DNA of 64,000 nucleotides from Hoyosella sp. YIM 151337 (lineage in GTDB: Bacteria > Actinomycetota > Actinomycetes > Mycobacteriales > Mycobacteriaceae): assembly GCF_026041215.1 (NCBI RefSeq), contig NZ_JAPEIQ010000006.1, positions 450,146 through 514,145 on the forward strand, written 5' to 3'. Numbering within the stretch: the first letter of the stretch is position 1; each line of letters opens with the position of its first letter. The position numbers were made by a program, and so were the translations under genes. Positions 4,094 through 13,733 of this stretch are shown one piece after another. A model generated the notes under the pieces. It was not told the DNA's origin. It saw only the letters and a program-made list of their open reading frames with translations, and did not search any database.

Positions 4094-4963
4094 TCACTTG
4101 TTCTCAAGCAGACCGCGCCGCCGGAGCAGCGCCTGTTCAATCTGGCCGAATACAAGACTGTCGACGAGGATACCCACTGCCAAAATGATGATCATGGTGG
4201 CTAGCAAGCCGTGGGCATCACCGAGGTCACGAGAGATCTGCAGCGTATGTCCGAGTGAGGATTGCCCGGCAGCTGTCACGATGAGTTCACCGGCCATCAA
4301 GCTTCGCCAGGCAAACGCCCAGCCCTGCTTCAGCCCAGCCACAAAAGTGGGTAGCGCTGCGGGAAGGATGACGTGGCGATAAAGGGAAACCCCCCGGGCT
4401 CCTAGAACGTGACCGGCCCGCAGCCACAGCGGCGGTATCTGATCAACACCACTGATGAGCCCGTTCGCGATCGACGGCGCCGCACCGAGGACGACGACGA
4501 AAAAGATCGCCTGCTGCCCGCTGAACGGGAACAGCAGGATCGCGAGCGGCACCCACGCGACTGACGGCATCGTCTGAAGTCCGGTGATGAACGACCCGAA
4601 CGCCGCCCGTAGTACCCGTATTCGCGCCACGAGACTACCAACGACGACCCCGATGACAAGCGCGAGTGCGAACCCACTCGCGCCGCGCTGCAGAGTGACA
4701 AGCGTGGCCTCAACGAGGCTGCCGTCGAGCGTCCGGCGCCACAGCTCAGCGAACACATCGGCTGGGCCAGGCAGAAGGTACTCCGGTTTCCAGCCGCTCA
4801 GCACGACGAGTTGCCAAAGGCCGAGCGCAAGGGCGACGGCCCCTACCTTGGGCCACACGGCACTCCAGATCCGCACGGCTAGCGGCTTTTTCGCTTCCTG
4901 CGGAGTTTCCAGTCGATCGAGTCCCTGGATTTCCTGGTCTAGTTGCGCGACATCAGCGGCCAT
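4094..4963 (-). CDS. ssuC: sulfonate-type ABC transporter permease
   Basis: Membrane subunit (289 aa) of an SsuABC/TauABC-type importer. After a charged N-terminus it has about six hydrophobic segments and the EAA loop (RAGHVLGARGVSLYRHVILP) that docks onto the ATPase. The ATG at 4963 overlaps the end of ssuB by 11 nt and is preceded by a strong GGGGGAGG at the end of ssuB, showing translational coupling. Last gene of the minus-strand sulfur operon that begins at 10956. The substrate cannot be read from the permease; sulfonate is inferred from the whole operon. TauC is the closest alternative name. Confidence 0.85.
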   Translation of the reverse strand: MAADVAQLDQEIQGLDRLETPQEAKKPLAVRIWSAVWPKVGAVALALGLWQLVVLSGWKPEYLLPGPADVFAELWRRTLDGSLVEATLVTLQRGASGFALALVIGVVVGSLVARIRVLRAAFGSFITGLQTMPSVAWVPLAILLFPFSGQQAIFFVVVLGAAPSIANGLISGVDQIPPLWLRAGHVLGARGVSLYRHVILPAALPTFVAGLKQGWAFAWRSLMAGELIVTAAGQSSLGHTLQISRDLGDAHGLLATMIIILAVGILVDSLVFGQIEQALLRRRGLLENK

Positions 4964-5741
4964 GACGGCGCACCTCCCCCTTCAGCACATCAGTGATCGT
5001 GCTCGCCAGCTCGGACACCTCGGGGGATTCGATCCGTCGCGGACGCGGTATGCCGACATCGAATGTCTCGAGAATTCTGCCGGGACGGCTCGACAGCACA
5101 ACAACGCGGTCGGCGAGGCGTGCGGCTTCACGCACGTTATGGGTGACGAAAATGACGGTGAGGCCTCGTTCGCGCCACAGCCGCTCCAGCTCACCGTGCA
5201 GAACGTCGCGGGTCATCGCGTCGAGCGCCCCGAACGGTTCATCCATCAGCAGCACGTCCGCATCCTGAGCGAAGGCGCGAGCAATCGCGACACGCTGACG
5301 CATACCGCCAGAAAGTTCGTGCGGCCGCTTCCCCGCGAAGGCGTCCAAGTGAACCGCTGCGAGCAGTTCCTGTGCCCGCTGTTTACGCTCCCGCCGCCCG
5401 ACGCCGCGCAGCTTGAGCGCGAGCTCTACATTGGCAGCCACAGTGAGCCAGGGGAACAGTGCTGACTCCTGGAACATAAGTGCGGCGCGCCCCTGTACGC
5501 GCACCGAGCCGTCGGTTGGTTTGTCGAGCCCAGAAATGAGGTTCAGCAGGGTGCTCTTGCCGCAGCCAGACGCGCCAACCAGGCATAGGAACTCGCCTTT
5601 TGTGACACCGAGAGCGACCCGGTCGAGTGCTTGAACAGCTGTTTTTCCGTGACCGTACGTCTTGCTGACGTGGTCGAGTGTGACGGCTGTGCCAGCATGT
5701 TCGACCACCGCCGCGCGTGAGCCGGACGCGAGGATACTCAT
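4953..5741 (-). CDS. ssuB: sulfonate-type ABC transporter ATP-binding protein
   Basis: A 262-aa ATPase powering the importer. It has Walker A GASGCGKST, a Q-loop in MFQESALFPW, signature LSGGMRQR, Walker B VLLMDEPFGALD and the H-loop VTHN. The DEPFGALD and HNVREA wording is typical of the SsuB/TauB/nitrate-taurine class. The start at 5741 overlaps the stop of the binding-protein gene as ATGA (5738-5741), and its own 3' end overlaps ssuC, so A, B and C are made together. Confidence 0.88.
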   Translation of the reverse strand: MSILASGSRAAVVEHAGTAVTLDHVSKTYGHGKTAVQALDRVALGVTKGEFLCLVGASGCGKSTLLNLISGLDKPTDGSVRVQGRAALMFQESALFPWLTVAANVELALKLRGVGRRERKQRAQELLAAVHLDAFAGKRPHELSGGMRQRVAIARAFAQDADVLLMDEPFGALDAMTRDVLHGELERLWRERGLTVIFVTHNVREAARLADRVVVLSSRPGRILETFDVGIPRPRRIESPEVSELASTITDVLKGEVRRHGR

Positions 5742-6802
5742 GAGTCAGACACCTCCGGTGCACCGCGCTCCCGAAGGAGTTCATTGAGAATCGTGAGATC
5801 GTAAATCCCGGCTAGATCTACCGGCTCAAGCAGTCCCGCCGCGATCGCGTCGTCTGCGGATTCCTGCAGGGAAGAGGCAATCGGATCTGGCGTGAACTCG
5901 AGGTTCTGCCACGCGGCCGCGATCAGTTCGGCTGACAGCCGCGTACCGATCGCGTTCTCGATGCCGTCCAGCGTAATAGTCTGTGCCTCATCCGGGTTGG
6001 CGTTCACGAACTCCAGCGCGTCGAGGTGGGCTGAAAGGATGGCGCGTACGATCTCCGGGTTGCTGTCGAGGAACGACGTCGACGCGAGGATGTGCGTCGT
6101 GACGTACTGCCTGTTGGGCCAAAGGTCACGCTCATCAACAAGCACCTTGCCCCCCGCCTCATCTACCAGTCGTGTCGCCCAAGGCTCCGGAACCCAGGCA
6201 CCATCGAGGTCACCCTGCTGAAAGGCCTGGAGTACGTCCGCATTCGCCATCGATCTAATCGACACATCACCGCCACCCTGCGTATCGGTTTGGAGCCCCT
6301 GCTCCGCGAGCCACGCCCGCAGTGCGACATCCTGCGTGTTCCCTATCGGCTGCGGCGAGGCGAGCGTCGCACCTTCAAGGTCGTCAGGGCCGTCAATGCC
6401 CTCCCGCACAACGAAGAAGGCGCCGCCAGAAGTGGATCCGGAGATTAGGCGCACCGCTTCTCCGTTTGAGCGCTGGAAGGCGTTGATCGCTGGGTTGGGC
6501 CCAATGTAGGTGATGTCGATCGCACCTGCGAGCAGCGCCTGCGCGGCCTCGCCACCCGCATTGAAATAGTGCACTTCGAGTTCTACGTCATCGCCAAGCG
6601 CTTCCTGGAGAAGGCTATTCTCCACGCCTACGAGCGCGGGCGCGTGCGTGACGTTCGGGAACATTCCTACGCGGACGGTGGATGCTGCCCCTTCGTTCTG
6701 ATCCGCACTGGTACAGCCGGAAACGGCCAGCCCGAAACCGAGGATTACAGCGGCTAACCGTGCGGTGGCCGACCAGCGACCACTCTTCCGACTCATTTTC
6801 AT
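5738..6802 (-). CDS. ssuA: ABC transporter substrate-binding lipoprotein, sulfonate type
   Basis: A 354-aa extracellular receptor tethered by lipid. The N-terminus has basic residues, a hydrophobic core and the lipobox VSGC, so the mature protein starts at Cys30. The body (VRVGMFPNVTHAPALVG, then NAGGEAAQALLAGAIDITYIG) matches the NMT1/SsuA fold that binds aliphatic sulfonates, taurine or nitrate. It lies 138 nt after the StyA-like gene in the same direction, and that gap holds an inverted repeat (6821-6864), so an extra promoter or operator is possible. The exact ligand is inferred from the sulfur genes around it, not seen. Confidence 0.82.
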   Translation of the reverse strand: MKMSRKSGRWSATARLAAVILGFGLAVSGCTSADQNEGAASTVRVGMFPNVTHAPALVGVENSLLQEALGDDVELEVHYFNAGGEAAQALLAGAIDITYIGPNPAINAFQRSNGEAVRLISGSTSGGAFFVVREGIDGPDDLEGATLASPQPIGNTQDVALRAWLAEQGLQTDTQGGGDVSIRSMANADVLQAFQQGDLDGAWVPEPWATRLVDEAGGKVLVDERDLWPNRQYVTTHILASTSFLDSNPEIVRAILSAHLDALEFVNANPDEAQTITLDGIENAIGTRLSAELIAAAWQNLEFTPDPIASSLQESADDAIAAGLLEPVDLAGIYDLTILNELLRERGAPEVSDS

Positions 6803-6940: not shown

Positions 6941-8305
6941 TCATACTCGCGCCGCAGCCGCCGGTGATGCGGTGAATCCGCTGCTCGGCGCGAACCGTGA
7001 GAGCACGTCGCCACTGGGTTCACCCGCTATCTCAGAGATGTAGCCCAGCACATCGTCTCGGTCCTTGAGGGCGGTGAGTCGGTCCGGCTCGGACAGGAAC
7101 CCAAACAGCGCCGCTGCCACGCGCTCGCTCACAGCTGCGGCTGGGAAGAGTAACTCCGCATGAGCGGCATACTTCGGATCACCCAGGAAAAGCCTGGTGA
7201 CTTCCGCCGCGGCATTGCCTCGCTCCTCCCAGTGTGTGTCGAATTGCTCCCCGAGCCAGTCGGCGCTGAACTCGCCTTTGTGTGAAGCTGCCGCAGCAAC
7301 CAAAGCGGCGACCTGCACGATAGCGTTTTGTGCCCCCTGCCCCGCCAGCGGATCGAACGCAATGGCCGCATCTCCAATAGCTGCCACCGCATGGCCGCTG
7401 CTCGTCGTGCCCACAGCCTTGCGGACCGTGGGAGTCACCGCGCCCCGCAGCCACGAATGCGGATCCGAGACGATCGCTTCAAGCTTCTCCACCTCGGGGG
7501 CGTCATTGGGAAAGTACTCGCGGTAGAAATCGACGACGACGTTGCGCGCGCTGTGGACATCGATTGCCCGTGTGAAGCGCTCCTCCCACGGACTGCCCGG
7601 CTTAGCAAAGCCGAGAAAACTCCACGACGGGCCAGCGTCCTTGTGCAGGAACGGCCCCAGCCACGCCTCCCCGAAGTCGGTGTGCAAATTGAACAGGTTG
7701 TGGACACGGCCATTCTGGGTTCGGTACCCGAAATCTGGACTGTCGCCTTTTGCCTGCAGCGTCACCAGAAGGAGGGAACGCTGCGGCGTGCGGTACACCG
7801 TCCGCTCCTCGTCCACAGGGAACAATGACACGAGACCGCCCTTGCCCGTCGCCACGAGTGTCAGGGCGTGCTTTCCGGCGATGGCGTCCAGCTCGTCAAC
7901 AGTCACTGTGCGTACTTCGAATACTCCACCGCGTTGAACGAATCGGTCGATCCGATCGGCAGCTCGCAGGCGGACGTCCACAGCCTGTGCGAAGTAGCCG
8001 AATTCGGGGTCGAACTCGAGAATTTCGCCGCGCTCGTCGCCGTAGCCCGTGTGCAGGCGAGTGCTGAGCCCGGTAGTCAGCGTTTCTTCTCCGTAGAGAT
8101 CTTCGATGATGCGCGCATCTGCTTCCCGGGACTTCCCGAAATATACAGCGCTGCCAGTCGGTGGCACGTCGTCACGCAGCCCCCGACGAGCCCTGTCGCT
8201 GTACAAGGTCACGTTGAACCCAGCGTTCAGAAACCCGAGTGCCGCAGATGATCCCGCGAGACCCGCGCCGATTACCGCTACAGACCGTTGTTGCTGTTCA
8301 GACAT
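6941..8305 (-). CDS. StyA-like FAD-dependent monooxygenase
   Basis: A 454-aa flavoprotein. It has the dinucleotide fold GAGLAGSSAALGF at the N-terminus, an ATGKGG segment near residue 150 and the FAD-ribityl motif IGDAAIAFDPLAGQGAQNA in the C-terminal third; it ends near RFAPSSGF, like styrene/indole monooxygenases (StyA). Such enzymes take FADH2 from a separate reductase and epoxidise alkenes or oxidise sulfides. I chose ATG 8305 because CTGGAG precedes it by 5 nt; the frame also allows GTG 8311. It starts 21 nt after the NtaA-like gene in the sulfur operon, so a sulfide or thioether substrate is a reasonable guess. No StyB partner adjoins it; the flavin reductase at 18747-19244 might serve. 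Confidence 0.72.
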   Translation of the reverse strand: MSEQQQRSVAVIGAGLAGSSAALGFLNAGFNVTLYSDRARRGLRDDVPPTGSAVYFGKSREADARIIEDLYGEETLTTGLSTRLHTGYGDERGEILEFDPEFGYFAQAVDVRLRAADRIDRFVQRGGVFEVRTVTVDELDAIAGKHALTLVATGKGGLVSLFPVDEERTVYRTPQRSLLLVTLQAKGDSPDFGYRTQNGRVHNLFNLHTDFGEAWLGPFLHKDAGPSWSFLGFAKPGSPWEERFTRAIDVHSARNVVVDFYREYFPNDAPEVEKLEAIVSDPHSWLRGAVTPTVRKAVGTTSSGHAVAAIGDAAIAFDPLAGQGAQNAIVQVAALVAAAASHKGEFSADWLGEQFDTHWEERGNAAAEVTRLFLGDPKYAAHAELLFPAAAVSERVAAALFGFLSEPDRLTALKDRDDVLGYISEIAGEPSGDVLSRFAPSSGFTASPAAAARV

Positions 8306-8326
8306 TTCCACTCCAGATTCTCGTTG

Positions 8327-9739
8327 TCAGCTGACATCGGCGCGATAGCGCGATGTGATGGTGGAGAGGTCACCGCCAGGGCGGTAGCGAACTCCTCGAT
8401 GGCCGTCTGGGAGCCGTGCTCCCAGGCCGAAAAGCTTCTCTCTCAAGGTCCCGTGCGAGTACGTCGCCGGGTACGCACCGCGTTCCTGCAACACAGGCAC
8501 TACATGGGTAATGACGTCTTCAAAGGACCCCGGGGTGATCGCGTAAGCGAGGTTGAAGCCGTCGACGCCGGTGTCTGAAACCCACTTCTGCAACTGGTCT
8601 GCCACAGTGTTGCCTGACCCAACGAATCGCGGGCCCAGCCCACCGATGCTGGCCCATTCAGCAATGTCACGAACCAGCCATTCGCGACCGTCATCTCCCG
8701 ACTCCTGGAACGCGGCGACAGCCGAACGGATCGCATTGCTTTCGACGTTTCCGATTGGCTCATCGAGGTCGTAGCGGGAAAGGTCGATGCCCATCCACCC
8801 GGATGTGAAGACAAGTCCGCCCTCGAGACTTGCGTACCGTTTGAATTCCTCATGCTTGGCAGCGGCCGCCGCGTCCGTTCTGTCCGTGATGATGGTCGCG
8901 AGCGCGTAAATCCGTGCAGCATCAGGTGCGCGGCCCGCTGCTACAAGGCCTTGTCGTATACGCCGCACCGTCTCCCTCAGCACACGTTTGGACGGTGCCG
9001 CCACGAAGATCGCCTCTGCGTGCTCCGAGGCAAAGCGGATTCCACGAGGTGAGGCGCCGGCCTGGTAGATCACTGGCGTGCGTTGTGGGGATGGTTCGGA
9101 CAGGTGAATGCCCGGAACCGAAAAATGCTCACCCCGGTGCCCAATGTGATGCACTTTGTCCGCGTCGACATACACGCCGCGTTCACGGTCTCGTACGACC
9201 GCGCCGTCTTCCCACGACCCCTCCCAGAGCTTGTACAGCACTTCCAGGTACTCGTCGGCATGGTCGTAGCGGGCGTCGTGGTCAAGCTGATCCGCGGCGC
9301 CGAAGTTCCGCGCCGCAGACGGCAGGTAGCCCGTGACGACGTTCCACCCAATACGTCCTTGAGTGAGGTGATCGAGAGTCGATAGCCGACGCGCAAATGG
9401 GTAAGGGTGCTCGAACCCTGTGCCCGTGGTGATGCCAAAGCCGAGGTGCTGTGTTGCGGCAGCCATCGCGGAGACGAGCAGAATGGGATCAGCGACCGGT
9501 ATCTGGGCACCCTCCCGCAACGCCGCTTCATCGGTGCCGCCGTACACGTCATATGTGCCCAGAACATCCGCGATGAACAGCCCGTCAAAGACACCCCGCT
9601 CCAGCAGCGTGGCAAGCCCAGTCCAGTATCCGATATCGGTATACCGCTGAGACTGGTCCGCTGGGTGCCGCCACAGGCCTGGCGACTGGTGGGCGACGCA
9701 GTTCATGTCGAACGCGTTGAAACGAATTCGCCTGGTCAT
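8327..9739 (-). CDS. LLM-class flavin monooxygenase, NtaA/DszA/DmoA type
   Basis: A 470-aa FMNH2-dependent monooxygenase of the bacterial luciferase fold. The start FNAFDMNC, then GLWRHP and YWTGLATLLERGVFDGLFIADVL, and GWNVVTGYLPSAARNFG, are hallmarks of the nitrilotriacetate / dibenzothiophene-sulfone / dimethylsulfide monooxygenase group. Members cleave C-S or C-N bonds using reduced FMN from a partner reductase. The start is ATG 9739, overlapping the stop of the DszC-like gene as ATGA (9736-9739); a longer frame to 9772 exists but lies inside that gene. The pairing with a DszC-like protein mirrors the DszA/DszC logic. The actual substrate is unknown. Confidence 0.85.
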   Translation of the reverse strand: MTRRIRFNAFDMNCVAHQSPGLWRHPADQSQRYTDIGYWTGLATLLERGVFDGLFIADVLGTYDVYGGTDEAALREGAQIPVADPILLVSAMAAATQHLGFGITTGTGFEHPYPFARRLSTLDHLTQGRIGWNVVTGYLPSAARNFGAADQLDHDARYDHADEYLEVLYKLWEGSWEDGAVVRDRERGVYVDADKVHHIGHRGEHFSVPGIHLSEPSPQRTPVIYQAGASPRGIRFASEHAEAIFVAAPSKRVLRETVRRIRQGLVAAGRAPDAARIYALATIITDRTDAAAAAKHEEFKRYASLEGGLVFTSGWMGIDLSRYDLDEPIGNVESNAIRSAVAAFQESGDDGREWLVRDIAEWASIGGLGPRFVGSGNTVADQLQKWVSDTGVDGFNLAYAITPGSFEDVITHVVPVLQERGAYPATYSHGTLREKLFGLGARLPDGHRGVRYRPGGDLSTITSRYRADVS

Positions 9740-10956
9740 GCTGACTGCTTTGAGAAGCGCCCAGCGCTCCACGCATACGGCAGCGCATCACCGTTCAGCA
9801 GGTATGCGCCCAGTGCTTGTTCCTTGAATATAAGTGGGTTATGCGCCGAGATCGTTCGCGCGTTGCGCCAGTGGCGATCCAGAGCGGGACCCGACGATGT
9901 GATCGAGGCGCCGCCCACTTCGAACAGCTGCGATGTCGCGTCGAGGACGAGGCCGATAACCACCGACTGGGCCTGCGCGGCCGCTGCTTCTGCCTGGTCC
10001 AGCAACTGGGGGTCGTCACCGCCAGCATCGAGCAAAACATCGAGGTCATCTGCGACTGCGAGCACCGCGGCACGCGCCCCGAAAGTCGCGGCCGCGAGCT
10101 TGCCGATGACCTGCTGAACCAGCGGATCATTGCGCGGCACATCAGCTGCGGCATGGGTGAACGTCCGGGTTCGCTGACGCACCCACTCCACAGTCTCCGC
10201 TTCCGCGCGCTGTGCGATTCCCGCAAGGACAGCGAGTTGGACCAGCTGAAGGTAAGCGGTGACGTAGGTGCGTCCGGGCGCCCCATATCCCGGGCCGAGT
10301 ATCCGGTCTTCCGGCACAACAACATCGGTGAATGTGGTGGTTCCGCTCACCGTGAGCTGCTGACCGAAACCGTCCCAGTCATCGGCCTGCTCAACTCCCG
10401 GTTGCTGGGCATCCACGAGGACGGACACACGCTCACCGTCGTAGTCCGCTGCGACAAGGATGTAGTCCGAATACAGACTTCCCGTGCTGTAATACTTCGT
10501 GCCGTTGAGAATCCTTTTGTCGCCGTCCCGCGTGAGCACCGTCTGATACCTGTCTGCCGCGCCGATCCCTGGCTCCGTGATCGCATTGCCCACGAATGCG
10601 CCCGCTGCGACAGCATCGAGCCAGACCCGCGCCTGGGCGTCACCCGACAACCGCTGGTCCTCGACGAACGACCAATGCACACGCAACGCCTGCGGCAGGT
10701 TCGATTCCGCCGCAGCCAAGTCGATAAGCAGCGTAAACAGTTGACGAACGGACACTCCGAAGCCGCCCAACTCCACAGGCACACGAAGCGCGCCGAAGCG
10801 AGCACTGCGCAACAGTTCGACCTCGTCGAAGAGCAGCCGGCGATCCTTTTCGCGCTGGATTGCGCCTTCCGCTATCTGGTCGAATATTGGCTGAAAACGT
10901 TCCTTCAGCTCCTGTTCGGTGGGCTGCGCGGCCGCGCCGAGTGTTGTGCTCCCCAC
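9736..10956 (-). CDS. DszC/SfnB-like acyl-CoA-dehydrogenase-fold flavoprotein
   Basis: A 406-aa protein with the acyl-CoA dehydrogenase fold in its sulfur-metabolism branch. The region ITEPGIGAADRYQT and the C-terminal RHWRNARTISAHNP are the signature seen in DszC and SfnB, which oxidise sulfur compounds with reduced flavin rather than dehydrogenating acyl-CoA. GTG start at 10956 with GAGGAG 5 nt before it. First gene of the minus-strand operon running to ssuC. A second, diverged copy of this family is at 20960-22117. DszC monooxygenase activity and SfnB-like function cannot be told apart by eye. Confidence 0.82.
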   Translation of the reverse strand: MGSTTLGAAAQPTEQELKERFQPIFDQIAEGAIQREKDRRLLFDEVELLRSARFGALRVPVELGGFGVSVRQLFTLLIDLAAAESNLPQALRVHWSFVEDQRLSGDAQARVWLDAVAAGAFVGNAITEPGIGAADRYQTVLTRDGDKRILNGTKYYSTGSLYSDYILVAADYDGERVSVLVDAQQPGVEQADDWDGFGQQLTVSGTTTFTDVVVPEDRILGPGYGAPGRTYVTAYLQLVQLAVLAGIAQRAEAETVEWVRQRTRTFTHAAADVPRNDPLVQQVIGKLAAATFGARAAVLAVADDLDVLLDAGGDDPQLLDQAEAAAAQAQSVVIGLVLDATSQLFEVGGASITSSGPALDRHWRNARTISAHNPLIFKEQALGAYLLNGDALPYAWSAGRFSKQSA

Positions 10957-11083
10957 TGTTACTCCTCAGGTAGGTAATGCGATCGGCACAACAATTGCCG
11001 GGCGGCGCGGAAAAGGCACGACTTCTGCTCGGCGCGAGCGAAATCCGGAGAAGACGGTGACAACCCGCGTGGCGTCGATCACC

Positions 11084-11119
11084 TGGTTTTCAACCCCTGC
11101 GAGTGCTACGTTCATCCAC
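11084..11119 (+). promoter_or_regulatory. promoter giving a leaderless transcript at the leader peptide
   Basis: TACGTT at 11107-11112 fits the actinobacterial -10 TANNNT, and the ATG of the leader peptide begins 8 nt later at 11120, where transcription would start. There is no Shine-Dalgarno sequence before this ATG, which agrees with a leaderless mRNA. A weak -35 (TGGTTT, 11084-11089) lies 17 nt upstream of the -10. The remainder of the 10957-11119 gap shows nothing else I can name. Confidence 0.5.
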
Positions 11120-11218
11120 ATGTCTCTTTCCACGTCACGCCCTGAGCACGCCTCGCTGGCTGCGGCAACGGCCCTGACGTCGGGAATGTGTCGAATGTGC
11201 TGTATGCACTGTTGCTGA
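11120..11218 (+). CDS. cysteine/methionine-rich leader peptide, candidate attenuator
   Basis: A 32-codon ORF whose last ten residues are MCRMCCMHCC, five Cys and three Met, followed at once by TGA. Tandem Cys codons at the end of a short leaderless ORF upstream of sulfur genes are known in mycobacteria as cysteine-responsive attenuators. Two hairpins follow directly (11220-11251 and 11250-11277), the second with a pyrimidine-rich tail. Leader bases 11191-11198 (TCGAATGT, inside the Cys codons) are the exact complement of 11226-11233, so alternative pairing is possible. The only gene downstream on this strand is the ROK regulator at 11327. Chance is the alternative, but the composition and position make that unlikely. 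Confidence 0.68.
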   Translation: MSLSTSRPEHASLAAATALTSGMCRMCCMHCC

Positions 11219-11219
11219 T

Positions 11220-11251
11220 CCCTCGACATTCGAACCCGGATGTCGTGAGGG
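11220..11251 (+). promoter_or_regulatory. hairpin after leader peptide, possible antiterminator
   Basis: CCCTCGACAT at 11220-11229 pairs with ATGTCG at 11240-11245 and AGGG at 11248-11251, a 10-bp stem with a 2-nt bulge. It starts one base after the leader stop codon, so a ribosome ending translation would cover its 5' arm, while one stalled on the Cys codons would leave it free. Its last two bases are also the first two of the next hairpin. Confidence 0.5.
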
Positions 11252-11290
11252 CGCGTGGTCAGATCTGATCTCGCGCCGCTTTCTCTTTCC
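11250..11290 (+). terminator. candidate intrinsic terminator of the leader transcript
   Basis: GGCGCG (11250-11255) pairs with CGCGCC (11272-11277), and inside it GGTCA pairs with TGATC around a GATC loop, giving an 11-bp stem with a single T-T mismatch and one G-T pair. The tail GCTTTCTCTTTCC (11278-11290) is pyrimidine-rich but not a pure T run, as often in actinobacteria. It lies between leader peptide and ROK gene, the place expected for an attenuator. Confidence 0.5.
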
Positions 11291-11326
11291 TGGATTCGCA
11301 TTTTCGGCACAAGAGAGTGACTTCCT

Positions 11327-12580
11327 GTGACTGTTACACCTATTTCTTCTCGCCACATCCAATCCGCGCCGGTACTGGTGACGCCACCCCGGTTCGAGCG
11401 GGCCGACAGTCCCGCTGCGGCGATACTGCGTGTCGCCGTGCAAGAGGGACCGATTGCGCGGGAGCGGGCTGCGCAACTCACCGGTTCGAGCATCGCCACC
11501 GTCAATCGCCACGTGTCTGCCCTCTTATCGGCCGGCCTGCTGCGGGAACGAGCCGACCTCTCCACTCCTGGCGCCGTAGGGCGACCACGGGTGCCCTTCG
11601 AAACGAATCACGAACCGTTTGCCACCCTCGGCATCCACATCGGGGCGGCGGTCACCACGCTGGTGGCGAGTGACATTCGCGGCAAGTTGCTTGGCGGCAT
11701 CCGGATACCGACCCCGCCCGGGCATCAACTGACCGCGCTCGCGTCCATTGCGCAGAGCGCAGCGTCATTCACCGCACGGTTCCGAAGGCAATTCCTCTGG
11801 GCCGGAGTAGCACTCGGCGGACGTGTGGATCCACAGTCCGGCACCGCGACGCATCCCCGGCTCGACTGGCTCGACGCACCCGTCGGTGAGGTGATCGGTG
11901 AAGCGCTGGCGGTTCCTGTATCGCTCTCCCCCCACGTTGAAGCGATGGCCGCCGCGGAGTTGCTGTTCACACCCACGCAGGGTGCGGCCTCCGCAAAGGA
12001 ACGAAGCAGCTTGTACTTCTACGCACGCGAAACCGTCGGTACCGCGCTGACCCTTGCTGGACGAGTGCACACGCCGAACAGCGGGCCGGGTTCCATCTCG
12101 CACTTCCCCACCGGGTCGAGTGTGGCGTGCCCGTGTGGCCGAAGCGGTTGCCTCGAGGCCACAGTGAGCGATCAGGCCATGATCGACCGGGGAATCGAGT
12201 GGGGTGTGCTCTCTCCCGATACGGCGTCGATCTCTGAACTGCATCACAAAGCGCGCGCGGGCGATTCGTCAGCAACAGCGATCCTGACTGAACGTGCCGA
12301 GGTTCTTGGCGGGATCGTCGCGATGCTGCGCGACCTATTCAATCCTGACGACGTGATACTCGGCGGCCAGGCGTTCACCCAATTTCCCGAGGCGATGCCT
12401 GCTTTCGCGCAATCCTTCGCCCGTACCAGCGCACTCCCCGGCAGGAACGTGCTGGTGACTGGATTCGGAAATCGGGTACAAGAGCATGCTGCCGCGGCGG
12501 TCGCACTCAGTGTGCTCCACGCCGATCCGCTCGCGGCGCTGCAAAAAGCACGCCTTGCCCACTCTGCCGGCGCTGTCTAG
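11327..12580 (+). CDS. ROK family transcriptional regulator
   Basis: A 417-aa protein with an N-terminal winged helix (RERAAQLTGSSIATVNRHVS, about residues 45-65) and a C-terminal ROK domain. The zinc-binding ROK signature is visible as CPCGRSGCLEA near residue 265. ROK regulators usually sense sugars, but this one is preceded by the Cys-rich leader and sits between a sulfonate operon and a TauE/SafE exporter, so a role in sulfur control is inferred. The GTG at 11327 has only a weak AAGAGAG upstream. Its 3' end overlaps the convergent tauE-like gene by 4 nt. Confidence 0.85.
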   Translation: MTVTPISSRHIQSAPVLVTPPRFERADSPAAAILRVAVQEGPIARERAAQLTGSSIATVNRHVSALLSAGLLRERADLSTPGAVGRPRVPFETNHEPFATLGIHIGAAVTTLVASDIRGKLLGGIRIPTPPGHQLTALASIAQSAASFTARFRRQFLWAGVALGGRVDPQSGTATHPRLDWLDAPVGEVIGEALAVPVSLSPHVEAMAAAELLFTPTQGAASAKERSSLYFYARETVGTALTLAGRVHTPNSGPGSISHFPTGSSVACPCGRSGCLEATVSDQAMIDRGIEWGVLSPDTASISELHHKARAGDSSATAILTERAEVLGGIVAMLRDLFNPDDVILGGQAFTQFPEAMPAFAQSFARTSALPGRNVLVTGFGNRVQEHAAAAVALSVLHADPLAALQKARLAHSAGAV

Positions 12581-13329
12581 CCGATCAATGCGAGCGCTCC
12601 CCTGATGATCGCCACCAACGCGCCTGCCGCGGCCAGTGACAGGGCGAGTGCACGCCCCAGACCCGGCGAGACGCGGCGGGCGACGAGCCCGCCGCCGAAG
12701 GTCGCGACCAATACCGTCGCTGTTACTGCGAGCAGTGTCCACCACGGCGGCAGACCTTCCGGCCCGGTCGCTCCGAAGGCAACTTTGACCAGGAAAGACA
12801 CAAGTCCCATTGTCATGAACACCGGGTTCATCGTGGCGGCGAAGGCCCGCTGGTCCCAGCGGGACACCAGGGCATACACGACCATGGCGGGTGCCGCAAT
12901 GCCCGCTGTCGTGTTGAAGAACCCCCCGGCTGTCCCCGCGAGCCCGGTGGCGGCCGGGCCTTCCAGGTGTGGCAAGGTCCGCACGAGATACGTGATCGCG
13001 AGGGTGAGCAGCACGAGCGCCCCGATACTGATCTGCAGCCAGGCGGCGGGCACAGCACGCACCACCAGAGCACCGGGGACTGCCCCGATCACGGCCGCTG
13101 GGGCGAGCATCGCGTACCGCCGCCAATCGACGTACTTCCAGACGTACAGCGTGATCAGCGCACCAGACATCGACGTAATGATGTTCGTGGCCAAGATCCC
13201 CTGCACCGGGCCCAGCAGAACCGCCAGCGTCGGTGCCACAACCAGCCCGACACCCGTTCCGGAAACACGCTGCAGCACAGTCCCTACCGCCACCGCGGCA
13301 AGGACCGCGGCGAGCATCTGCGCGGTCAC
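12577..13329 (-). CDS. sulfite exporter TauE/SafE family protein
   Basis: A 250-aa membrane protein with about eight hydrophobic segments. The segment SGTGVGLVVAPTLAVLLGP and the paired four-helix halves are typical of TauE/SafE (DUF81), which export sulfite, sulfoacetate or related anions. The start chosen is GTG 13329, which overlaps the HxlR stop as GTGA (13326-13329); the open frame to 13377 would lie within the regulator gene. In this setting it may export excess sulfite released by the desulfonating monooxygenases; that role is inferred from context. Confidence 0.83.
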   Translation of the reverse strand: MTAQMLAAVLAAVAVGTVLQRVSGTGVGLVVAPTLAVLLGPVQGILATNIITSMSGALITLYVWKYVDWRRYAMLAPAAVIGAVPGALVVRAVPAAWLQISIGALVLLTLAITYLVRTLPHLEGPAATGLAGTAGGFFNTTAGIAAPAMVVYALVSRWDQRAFAATMNPVFMTMGLVSFLVKVAFGATGPEGLPPWWTLLAVTATVLVATFGGGLVARRVSPGLGRALALSLAAAGALVAIIRGALALIG

Positions 13330-13733
13330 GCCGAAGCGGCTTCGGCGAGCAGATCTGCGCGCCGCTTCTCTCCCCAATCCTCTAGGGACTTCAGCGCGAC
13401 TTTCAGCTCCTCACCGAGTGCGGTAAGTGAATACTCAACGCGCGGGGGTATCTCCGGAAAAAACTCACGGTGCACAACACCGTCGGCCTCCATCTGACGC
13501 AGTTGCTCCGTCAGTACCTTCTCGCTGACGCCGTCGAGCATCCGCCGGATCTGCCCAAAACGCTGCGGGCCGTCACCGAGCACCCACATGATGTGCAGCT
13601 TCCATTTTCCGCCCACCACCTCAATGGCAACGCTCATGCCACACATGTCAGCAACGTCCTGCGACTCCACCAGCGTTCGCCTCCCAAACTGTCCCGGCGA
13701 TCCTCCAGGAAGAATACTCGCGTGCTGTGACAC
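13326..13733 (-). CDS. HxlR family transcriptional regulator
   Basis: A 135-aa winged-helix regulator. The family core GGKWKLHIMWVLGDGPQRFG, then VLTEQLRQMEADGVVHRE and the wing PRVEYSLTALGEEL, are clear. HxlR proteins often respond to reactive electrophiles, and many have an N-terminal Cys; here Cys31 (DMCGMS) precedes the first helix. It is translationally coupled to the TauE/SafE exporter, so it most likely controls that export function. Its stop overlaps the exporter start by 4 nt, and nine bases separate it from the end of the upstream DUF998 gene. Confidence 0.87.
   Translation of the reverse strand: MSQHASILPGGSPGQFGRRTLVESQDVADMCGMSVAIEVVGGKWKLHIMWVLGDGPQRFGQIRRMLDGVSEKVLTEQLRQMEADGVVHREFFPEIPPRVEYSLTALGEELKVALKSLEDWGEKRRADLLAEAASA

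Follow-up and report, generated by a model that had tools for sequence, protein, structure and literature searches.

A conserved Cys-rich leader ORF upstream of a ROK-family regulator gene in Hoyosella and its relatives

The gene for a ROK-family regulator in the window (the whole 64-kb stretch of Hoyosella DNA analyzed here) is preceded by a short Cys-rich leader ORF, which comparison of orthologous loci marks as real and conserved. We consider it highly probable that the leader senses cysteine, and it very probably lets the cell make the ROK regulator only on cysteine shortage. The fuller statement, in which the leader attenuates the ROK gene in response to cysteine, most likely at translation, has in our judgment a somewhat better than even chance of holding. 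The Cys leader is conserved and belongs to a type of control device described before in mycobacteria; what is new is the family-wide conservation of the leader and the link of the ROK gene to organosulfur genes. The leader region contains:

11107-11112, + strand: -10 box TACGTT, separated from the leader ATG by 7 nt; predicted leaderless start
11120-11218, + strand: leader ORF of 32 codons (product MSLSTSRPEHASLAAATALTSGMCRMCCMHCC), C-terminal MCRMCCMHCC, stop codon TGA at 11216-11218
11327-12580, + strand: gene for the ROK-family regulator, 417 aa, GTG start (PF00480, 91 bits)

The 32-codon ORF with its MCRMCCMHCC end and the TACGTT upstream of its ATG had been proposed in an initial annotation of this DNA, and both were confirmed at these positions. 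We infer that the ROK-gene transcript begins at the leader ATG (11120) and is leaderless. A scan of both strands for leaderless-type short ORFs with at least three Cys, including a CC pair, in the last 15 codons returned this ORF as the sole match in the 64-kb window. Under a strict leaderless test, no other Cys leader was found at the sulfur loci of the same genome (12 partly overlapping loci covering the sulfate transport/APS reductase region, the mshA region and cysK-like loci), and no NCBIfam family was found for the window leader or six leader peptides.

Conservation of the leader across orthologous loci

ROK matches at E <= 1e-40 were present in 101 of 397 genomes of the order. Sixty-six same-family genomes matched, own genome included; G193 was left out (contig edge), and L046, with just 47 nt of upstream sequence, was excluded from the count. 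The 88 assessable upstream regions comprised the window, one same-genus genome, 64 same-family genomes and 22 named records, and some of these regions may come from the same species. A leader was scored where TANNNT lay 5-9 nt before an ATG or GTG opening an ORF of 8-60 codons with at least two Cys among the last 15, within 450 nt. Controls were 41 other homologues or paralogues, with second matches in same-family genomes counted among them and five weak same-order homologues (G071, G092, G099, G120 and G170) excluded.

A leader with at least two Cys was found in 88/88 orthologous upstream regions, as compared to 0/41 controls and 12/1760 shuffles. Raising the threshold to at least three Cys gave 75/88, 0/41 and 1/1760, respectively. 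TANNNT lay 6-8 nt upstream of the start codon in all 88 leaders, a box at 5-9 nt being itself a search criterion. The proposal of a leaderless-type, Cys-rich leader preceding the ROK regulator is supported by this retention in every assessable orthologous region. Short ORFs are easily found in a 370-nt spacer, and a chance ORF without function is one rival explanation; the counts in orthologues, controls and shuffles contradict it and leave it a negligible probability, and on these grounds we conclude that the leader is not due to chance. In 15 genomes that lack a close match, 23 weaker homologues showed no Cys leader; only 8 of these homologues match the N-terminal part of the protein, so that the upstream region was truly seen in just 8/23. 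In a quick FastTree tree of 60 rows, 33 leader-bearing ROK proteins (33 of the 88) group together with a support of 92. Homologues of g7, a small-genome genus that is probably Corynebacterium, lie near the leader-bearing clade on long branches, which makes their placement unsure.

All groups share the leaderless layout and Cys codons close to the end of the leader, and the peptide is otherwise group-specific. Hoyosella leaders end in MCRM(C/Y)C(M/L)(H/R)CC, Rhodococcus-type leaders mostly read VTYVTAALGSRLPxxRELCC, Williamsia-type leaders are ALGCRLPFARVLCC-like and mycobacterial-type leaders are RACCCC-like. The longer conserved stretch VTYVTxALGxRLP, with close variants, in Rhodococcus- and Williamsia-type leaders would suit a leader that acts mainly via its peptide or via translational coupling and not via Cys supply, the Cys codons serving the peptide or a redox signal. 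We regard this as very improbable: the peptide is not conserved between groups, the terminal Cys and leaderless layout are what the groups share, and part of the conserved stretch is a palindrome, GGTCACnTAnGTGACC, that may be a DNA site. Met had been put forward as a second signal alongside Cys. This co-signal was rejected, as Met occurs in the last 15 residues of just 21/88 leaders; the third Met of the window leader is Leu in the closest relative, G002.

Exact copies of GGTCACnTAnGTGACC occur at Rhodococcus-/Williamsia-type leader ORFs (codons VTYVT) in 24/134 loci, one copy each (e.g., L042:4751-4766), and both half-sites are present in 25/88 leaders. It is a candidate operator. The window holds no exact copy; 13 matches with one or two mismatches were found there as compared to 4.3 expected, none of them near the leader.

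Pairing partners of the Cys codons and the terminator question

The leader and the spacer between it and the ROK gene hold the following elements:

11187-11200, + strand: arm 1 of a long-range helix, TGTGTCGAATGTGC, within Cys/Arg/Met codons
11220-11251, + strand: hairpin A, after the leader stop, CCCTC-GACATTCG...CGGATGTC-GAGGG; its 5' arm 11226-11233 can pair with leader 11191-11198
11250-11277, + strand: hairpin B, 11 pairs and one mismatch, from folding and comparison with G002
11278-11290, + strand: pyrimidine tail 3' of hairpin B, T-rich in the window (7 T of 9), not in G002
11298-11311, + strand: arm 2 of the long-range helix, GCATTTTCGGCACA, at the Shine-Dalgarno (SD)
11311-11317, + strand: SD of the ROK gene, AAGAGAG; its duplex with the anti-SD has an energy of -6.3 kcal/mol

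The best-kept partner of the Cys codons in two relatives is 11298-11311, an element absent from the initial annotation. With G-U pairs allowed, 13/14 positions of 11187-11200 and 11298-11311 pair in the window. The same pairing reaches 12/14 in G002 (L003), where one U-G has become C-G and one pair is lost, and 13/14 in H. rhizosphaerae (L036). The perfect runs are 9 nt in G002 and 11 nt at the same place in H. rhizosphaerae, ending 15 and 18 nt upstream of the ROK start, each with p 0.005, the minimum possible with 200 shuffles. The block 11292-11317 is identical in G002 (26/26), as compared to just 20/32 and 22/28 for the two hairpins. In the window itself the duplex of leader tail and ribosome-binding site (RBS) zone has p 0.048; its longest Watson-Crick run to this zone is 5 nt, not above chance, and the helix depends on G-U pairs.

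Mean leader/pre-SD runs, set against those with the zones of other groups, were 8.3 vs 4.6 for Hoyosella and 6.6 vs 4.9 for Williamsia-type loci. Runs at p <= 0.05 were found in 2/3 Hoyosella, 1/2 g6 and 2/14 Williamsia-type sequences, and complementarity was not above chance in the Rhodococcus-type (2/26) and the two mostly mycobacterial groups (0/29 and 0/13). Duplex energies reached p <= 0.05 in 2/19 sequences. Seven Williamsia-type loci carry the run (T)GTTGTCG/CGACAAC before the SD, individually at p 0.065-0.49. RNAalifold, applied to four groups, recovered a leader/RBS helix in the Williamsia-type group only, where it joins these two elements, though with the register shifted; for this grouping, L018 and L021 (Rhodococcus-type leaders) were kept in the long-spacer, mostly mycobacterial group, and L048 was in no group. 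Covarying runs were seen as GTGTCCT/AGGACAC in L085 and L090 and as GGATCCT/AGGATCC in L088. Judged by sequence, leader/RBS pairing is supported in the Hoyosella relatives and suggestive in the Williamsia-type loci. All sampled orthologues carry the Cys-leader device, and for some genera its pairing partner is apparent from the sequence.

These pairings would fit the following course of events. On a transcript that starts at the leader ATG, ribosomes would clear the Cys codons when charged Cys-tRNA is plentiful, leaving 11187-11200 free to pair with 11298-11311; together with hairpins A and B this helix would close the spacer and crowd the SD at 11311-11317, and little ROK protein would be made. 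When Cys is short, a ribosome would stall on the Cys codons and cover 11187-11200, the ribosome-binding site would be free, and ROK protein would be made and probably switch the SfnB/NtaA/StyA/SsuABC genes.

Simulated stalling does not open the RBS zone of the window (unpaired 0.43 free vs 0.28 stalled), and its SD is predicted to be mostly paired in all five simulated states. Averaged over 88 sequences, the RBS zone is unpaired at 0.38 free vs 0.40 stalled (57/88 higher, p 0.03), and a stalled ribosome as compared to one at the stop codon gives no clear RBS difference (45/88 higher, p 0.58). For eight loci, a ROK start farther upstream, picked by eye for relative-like spacing, was used in place of the automatic one. 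Because the simulations, the window's own run and the Rhodococcus-type and mostly mycobacterial groups give no support, the translation model draws mainly on the three available Hoyosella-type sequences, with weaker help from the Williamsia-type loci and from the reported mycobacterial precedent.

The initial annotation had instead read the region as a trp-type transcription attenuator, in which hairpin B is an intrinsic terminator and a stall in the Cys codons refolds the RNA so that the terminator fails. The two hairpins do fold as it described, overlapping by one or two bases. The segment TCGAATGT (11191-11198) is, as claimed, exactly complementary to ACATTCGA (11226-11233), with p 0.03 against 200 shuffled spacers; its conservation did not hold up, since two of eight aligned pairs are broken in G002 while the pairing with 11298-11311 keeps its 9-nt perfect run. 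Against shuffles, the structure gave z values of -2.64 for 11120-11300, -3.25 for 11186-11300 and -3.28 for 11216-11300, and of -1.6 to -2.4 for three shorter pieces. In a structure-guided comparison with G002, the 8-bp core of hairpin A is kept with two one-sided changes (a plain alignment does not show it), and 11/11 pairs of hairpin B are kept, two of them changed on both sides.

This conservation of hairpin B favors a terminator, as does its 11-pair stem followed by TTTCTCTTT, by which the window is the lone match among 88 spacers at >=6 T of 9 (0.0 expected, from 5 shuffles of each). Such a T-rich tail is unusual, yet the closest relative lacks it and has GCTCCCCTTCC in its place. Family-wide counts are near chance, with a hairpin and >=4 T of 9 in 10/88 spacers vs 7.6 expected, and >=5 T of 9 in 1/88 (again the window alone) vs 2.6 expected; uninterrupted stems at the three T thresholds numbered 4, 1 and 0 of 88 vs 4.9, 0.7 and 0.3 expected. 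Of the pattern anticipated in relatives, Cys codons near the leader end are borne out (88/88), while the terminator-like hairpins, and with them a conserved intrinsic terminator downstream of the leader, are not. In a separate scan, 10900-11400 was free of terminator-like sites, and thirteen mycobacterial-type spacers measure just 51-67 nt. No antiterminator that excludes hairpin B emerged: the minimum-energy fold contains both hairpins, and hairpin B forms in 5/5 simulated ribosome positions, so nothing excludes it. We therefore consider the trp-type switch unlikely and find little support for it; attenuation at translation is the more likely of the two. Nonetheless, the window stands out by its T-rich tail and not by its Watson-Crick run to the RBS, and for this reason we weigh the translation reading lower, and the terminator higher, than we otherwise would.

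A 2005 report (PMC1262725) describes mycobacterial cys operons preceded by Cys leader peptides that have no terminator and suggests Rho for them. Rho-dependent termination in the spacer once the ribosome leaves at the leader stop, blocked by a stall or by coupled translation, would also account for the groups without leader/RBS pairing. The Hoyosella spacer is strongly folded and ill-suited to Rho loading, and the conserved pre-SD block would be left unexplained, and we rate Rho-dependent termination as quite unlikely.

The ROK gene and its organosulfur neighborhood

The ROK protein combines a ROK domain (PF00480) with an N-terminal DNA-binding part, its match to NagC/Mlc starting at about residue 30. 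It is NagC/Mlc-like over residues 28-384 and does not reach the NagC and Mlc cut-offs of NCBIfam. Its neighbors in the window are:

4094-5741, - strand: ABC transporter permease (4094-4963) and ATPase (4953-5741), by Pfam
5738-6802, - strand: aliphatic sulfonate ABC transporter substrate-binding protein, SsuA family (TIGR01728, 169 bits, above cut-off)
6941-8311, - strand: StyA-like flavin monooxygenase (110 bits, below the cut-off of 550)
8327-9772, - strand: NtaA/DmoA-family FMN monooxygenase (TIGR03860, 543 bits, above cut-off)
9736-10956, - strand: SfnB-like sulfur acquisition oxidoreductase (TIGR04022, 260 bits, below the cut-off of 431); nearest gene of the divergent row
12577-13377, - strand: TauE/SafE family permease, convergent, 3' of the ROK gene (PF01925, 84 bits)

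Around the H. rhizosphaerae orthologue (L036), SfnG and SfnB genes score above cut-off, and SfnB-like and StyA-like genes score below it. SfnG and SfnB homologues were also found within 5 kb of the ROK orthologue at six Williamsia loci and in one record titled Kitasatospora. The position of the ROK gene beside the SfnB/NtaA/StyA/SsuABC row suggests that its product probably controls these organosulfur genes. As to individual records, L049, titled Kitasatospora arboriphila, matches Williamsia muralis (L050 and L052) exactly in its ROK locus and leader peptide and is probably mislabeled or contaminated. The g7 ROK homologue L159, in which the leader test found no Cys leader, adjoins a luciferase-like monooxygenase gene, in keeping with an SsuR-like role.

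The mycobacterial-type loci (L024-L035, and L046-L048 from records titled Mycobacterium) have a different setting. There, mshA lies 3' of the ROK gene in 14/15 (one mshA copy was confirmed by NCBIfam), an SDR gene precedes the ROK gene in 13/15 (L046 being almost without upstream sequence), and identity in ROK is 50-53%, where listed. In the genome of the window, the SDR gene and mshA are adjacent and divergent without a ROK gene between them (L154:5699-7993), and the ROK gene and leader therefore appear to occupy another position in the Hoyosella lineage. Rv0485 encodes a ROK protein, and Rv0485 and MSMEG_0932 precede Rv0486 and MSMEG_0933, which are mshA. By this synteny of the mycobacterial-type orthologues with mshA, Rv0485/MSMEG_0932 is very probably the orthologue of the window ROK gene.

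Combined, these observations allow a broader proposal, which we hold tentatively as a possibility short of an even chance. The leader could be a family-wide, ribosome-based Cys sensor placed atop a transcription-factor cascade, in which charged Cys-tRNA sets the level of ROK protein and thereby organosulfur scavenging or, in mycobacteria, mycothiol synthesis. Such a cascade would fill the role that falls to McbR in Corynebacterium, and the Rhodococcus-/Williamsia-type leader may also carry the ROK operator GGTCACnTAnGTGACC. For Rv0485 of M. tuberculosis, a cysteine-sensing leader would point to cysteine shortage as the likely input and to sulfur supply as the likely function.

Comparison with known leader and ROK systems

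Like trp-type attenuators, the leader peptide is rich in the putatively regulated amino acid and alternative pairings can be drawn; unlike them, it is followed by no conserved terminator. Canestrari et al. in 2020 reportedly described polycysteine leaderless attenuators in M. smegmatis and are said to have proposed Cys-dependent control via the downstream ribosome-binding site. The window leader resembles these in its predicted leaderless start, its Cys codons before the stop and the proposed control at the RBS. It differs in that its Cys codons are mixed with Met, Arg and His and its target is a regulator.

Ruckert et al. 2008 (PMC2580772) present CysR and SsuR of Corynebacterium glutamicum as ROK activators for sulfate and sulfonate use whose genes are themselves leaderless and under McbR control. 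The window ROK regulator is likewise tied to sulfur genes, here by neighborhood alone (Hoyosella and Williamsia loci). Leaderless, McbR-controlled cysR and ssuR are unlike the window ROK gene, and the weaker homologues likewise have no Cys leader (23, of which 8 have the upstream region truly seen).

The closest precedent removes the novelty first claimed for a ROK regulator as the target: a Cys-rich leaderless ORF before Rv0485/Msmeg_0932, the very probable orthologue, is already described by Shell et al. 2015 (PMC4633059). A literature search of titles and the starts of abstracts found no link of Rv0485/MSMEG_0932 to sulfur control, nor of a Cys leader with a ROK gene to it. Like the leader of Rv0485/MSMEG_0932, the window leader is a Cys-rich short ORF of leaderless type, and the genes that the two precede are very probably orthologous. 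Unlike it, the window has a different peptide and a 108-nt spacer with hairpins, and its ROK gene, instead of lying upstream of mshA, adjoins organosulfur genes.
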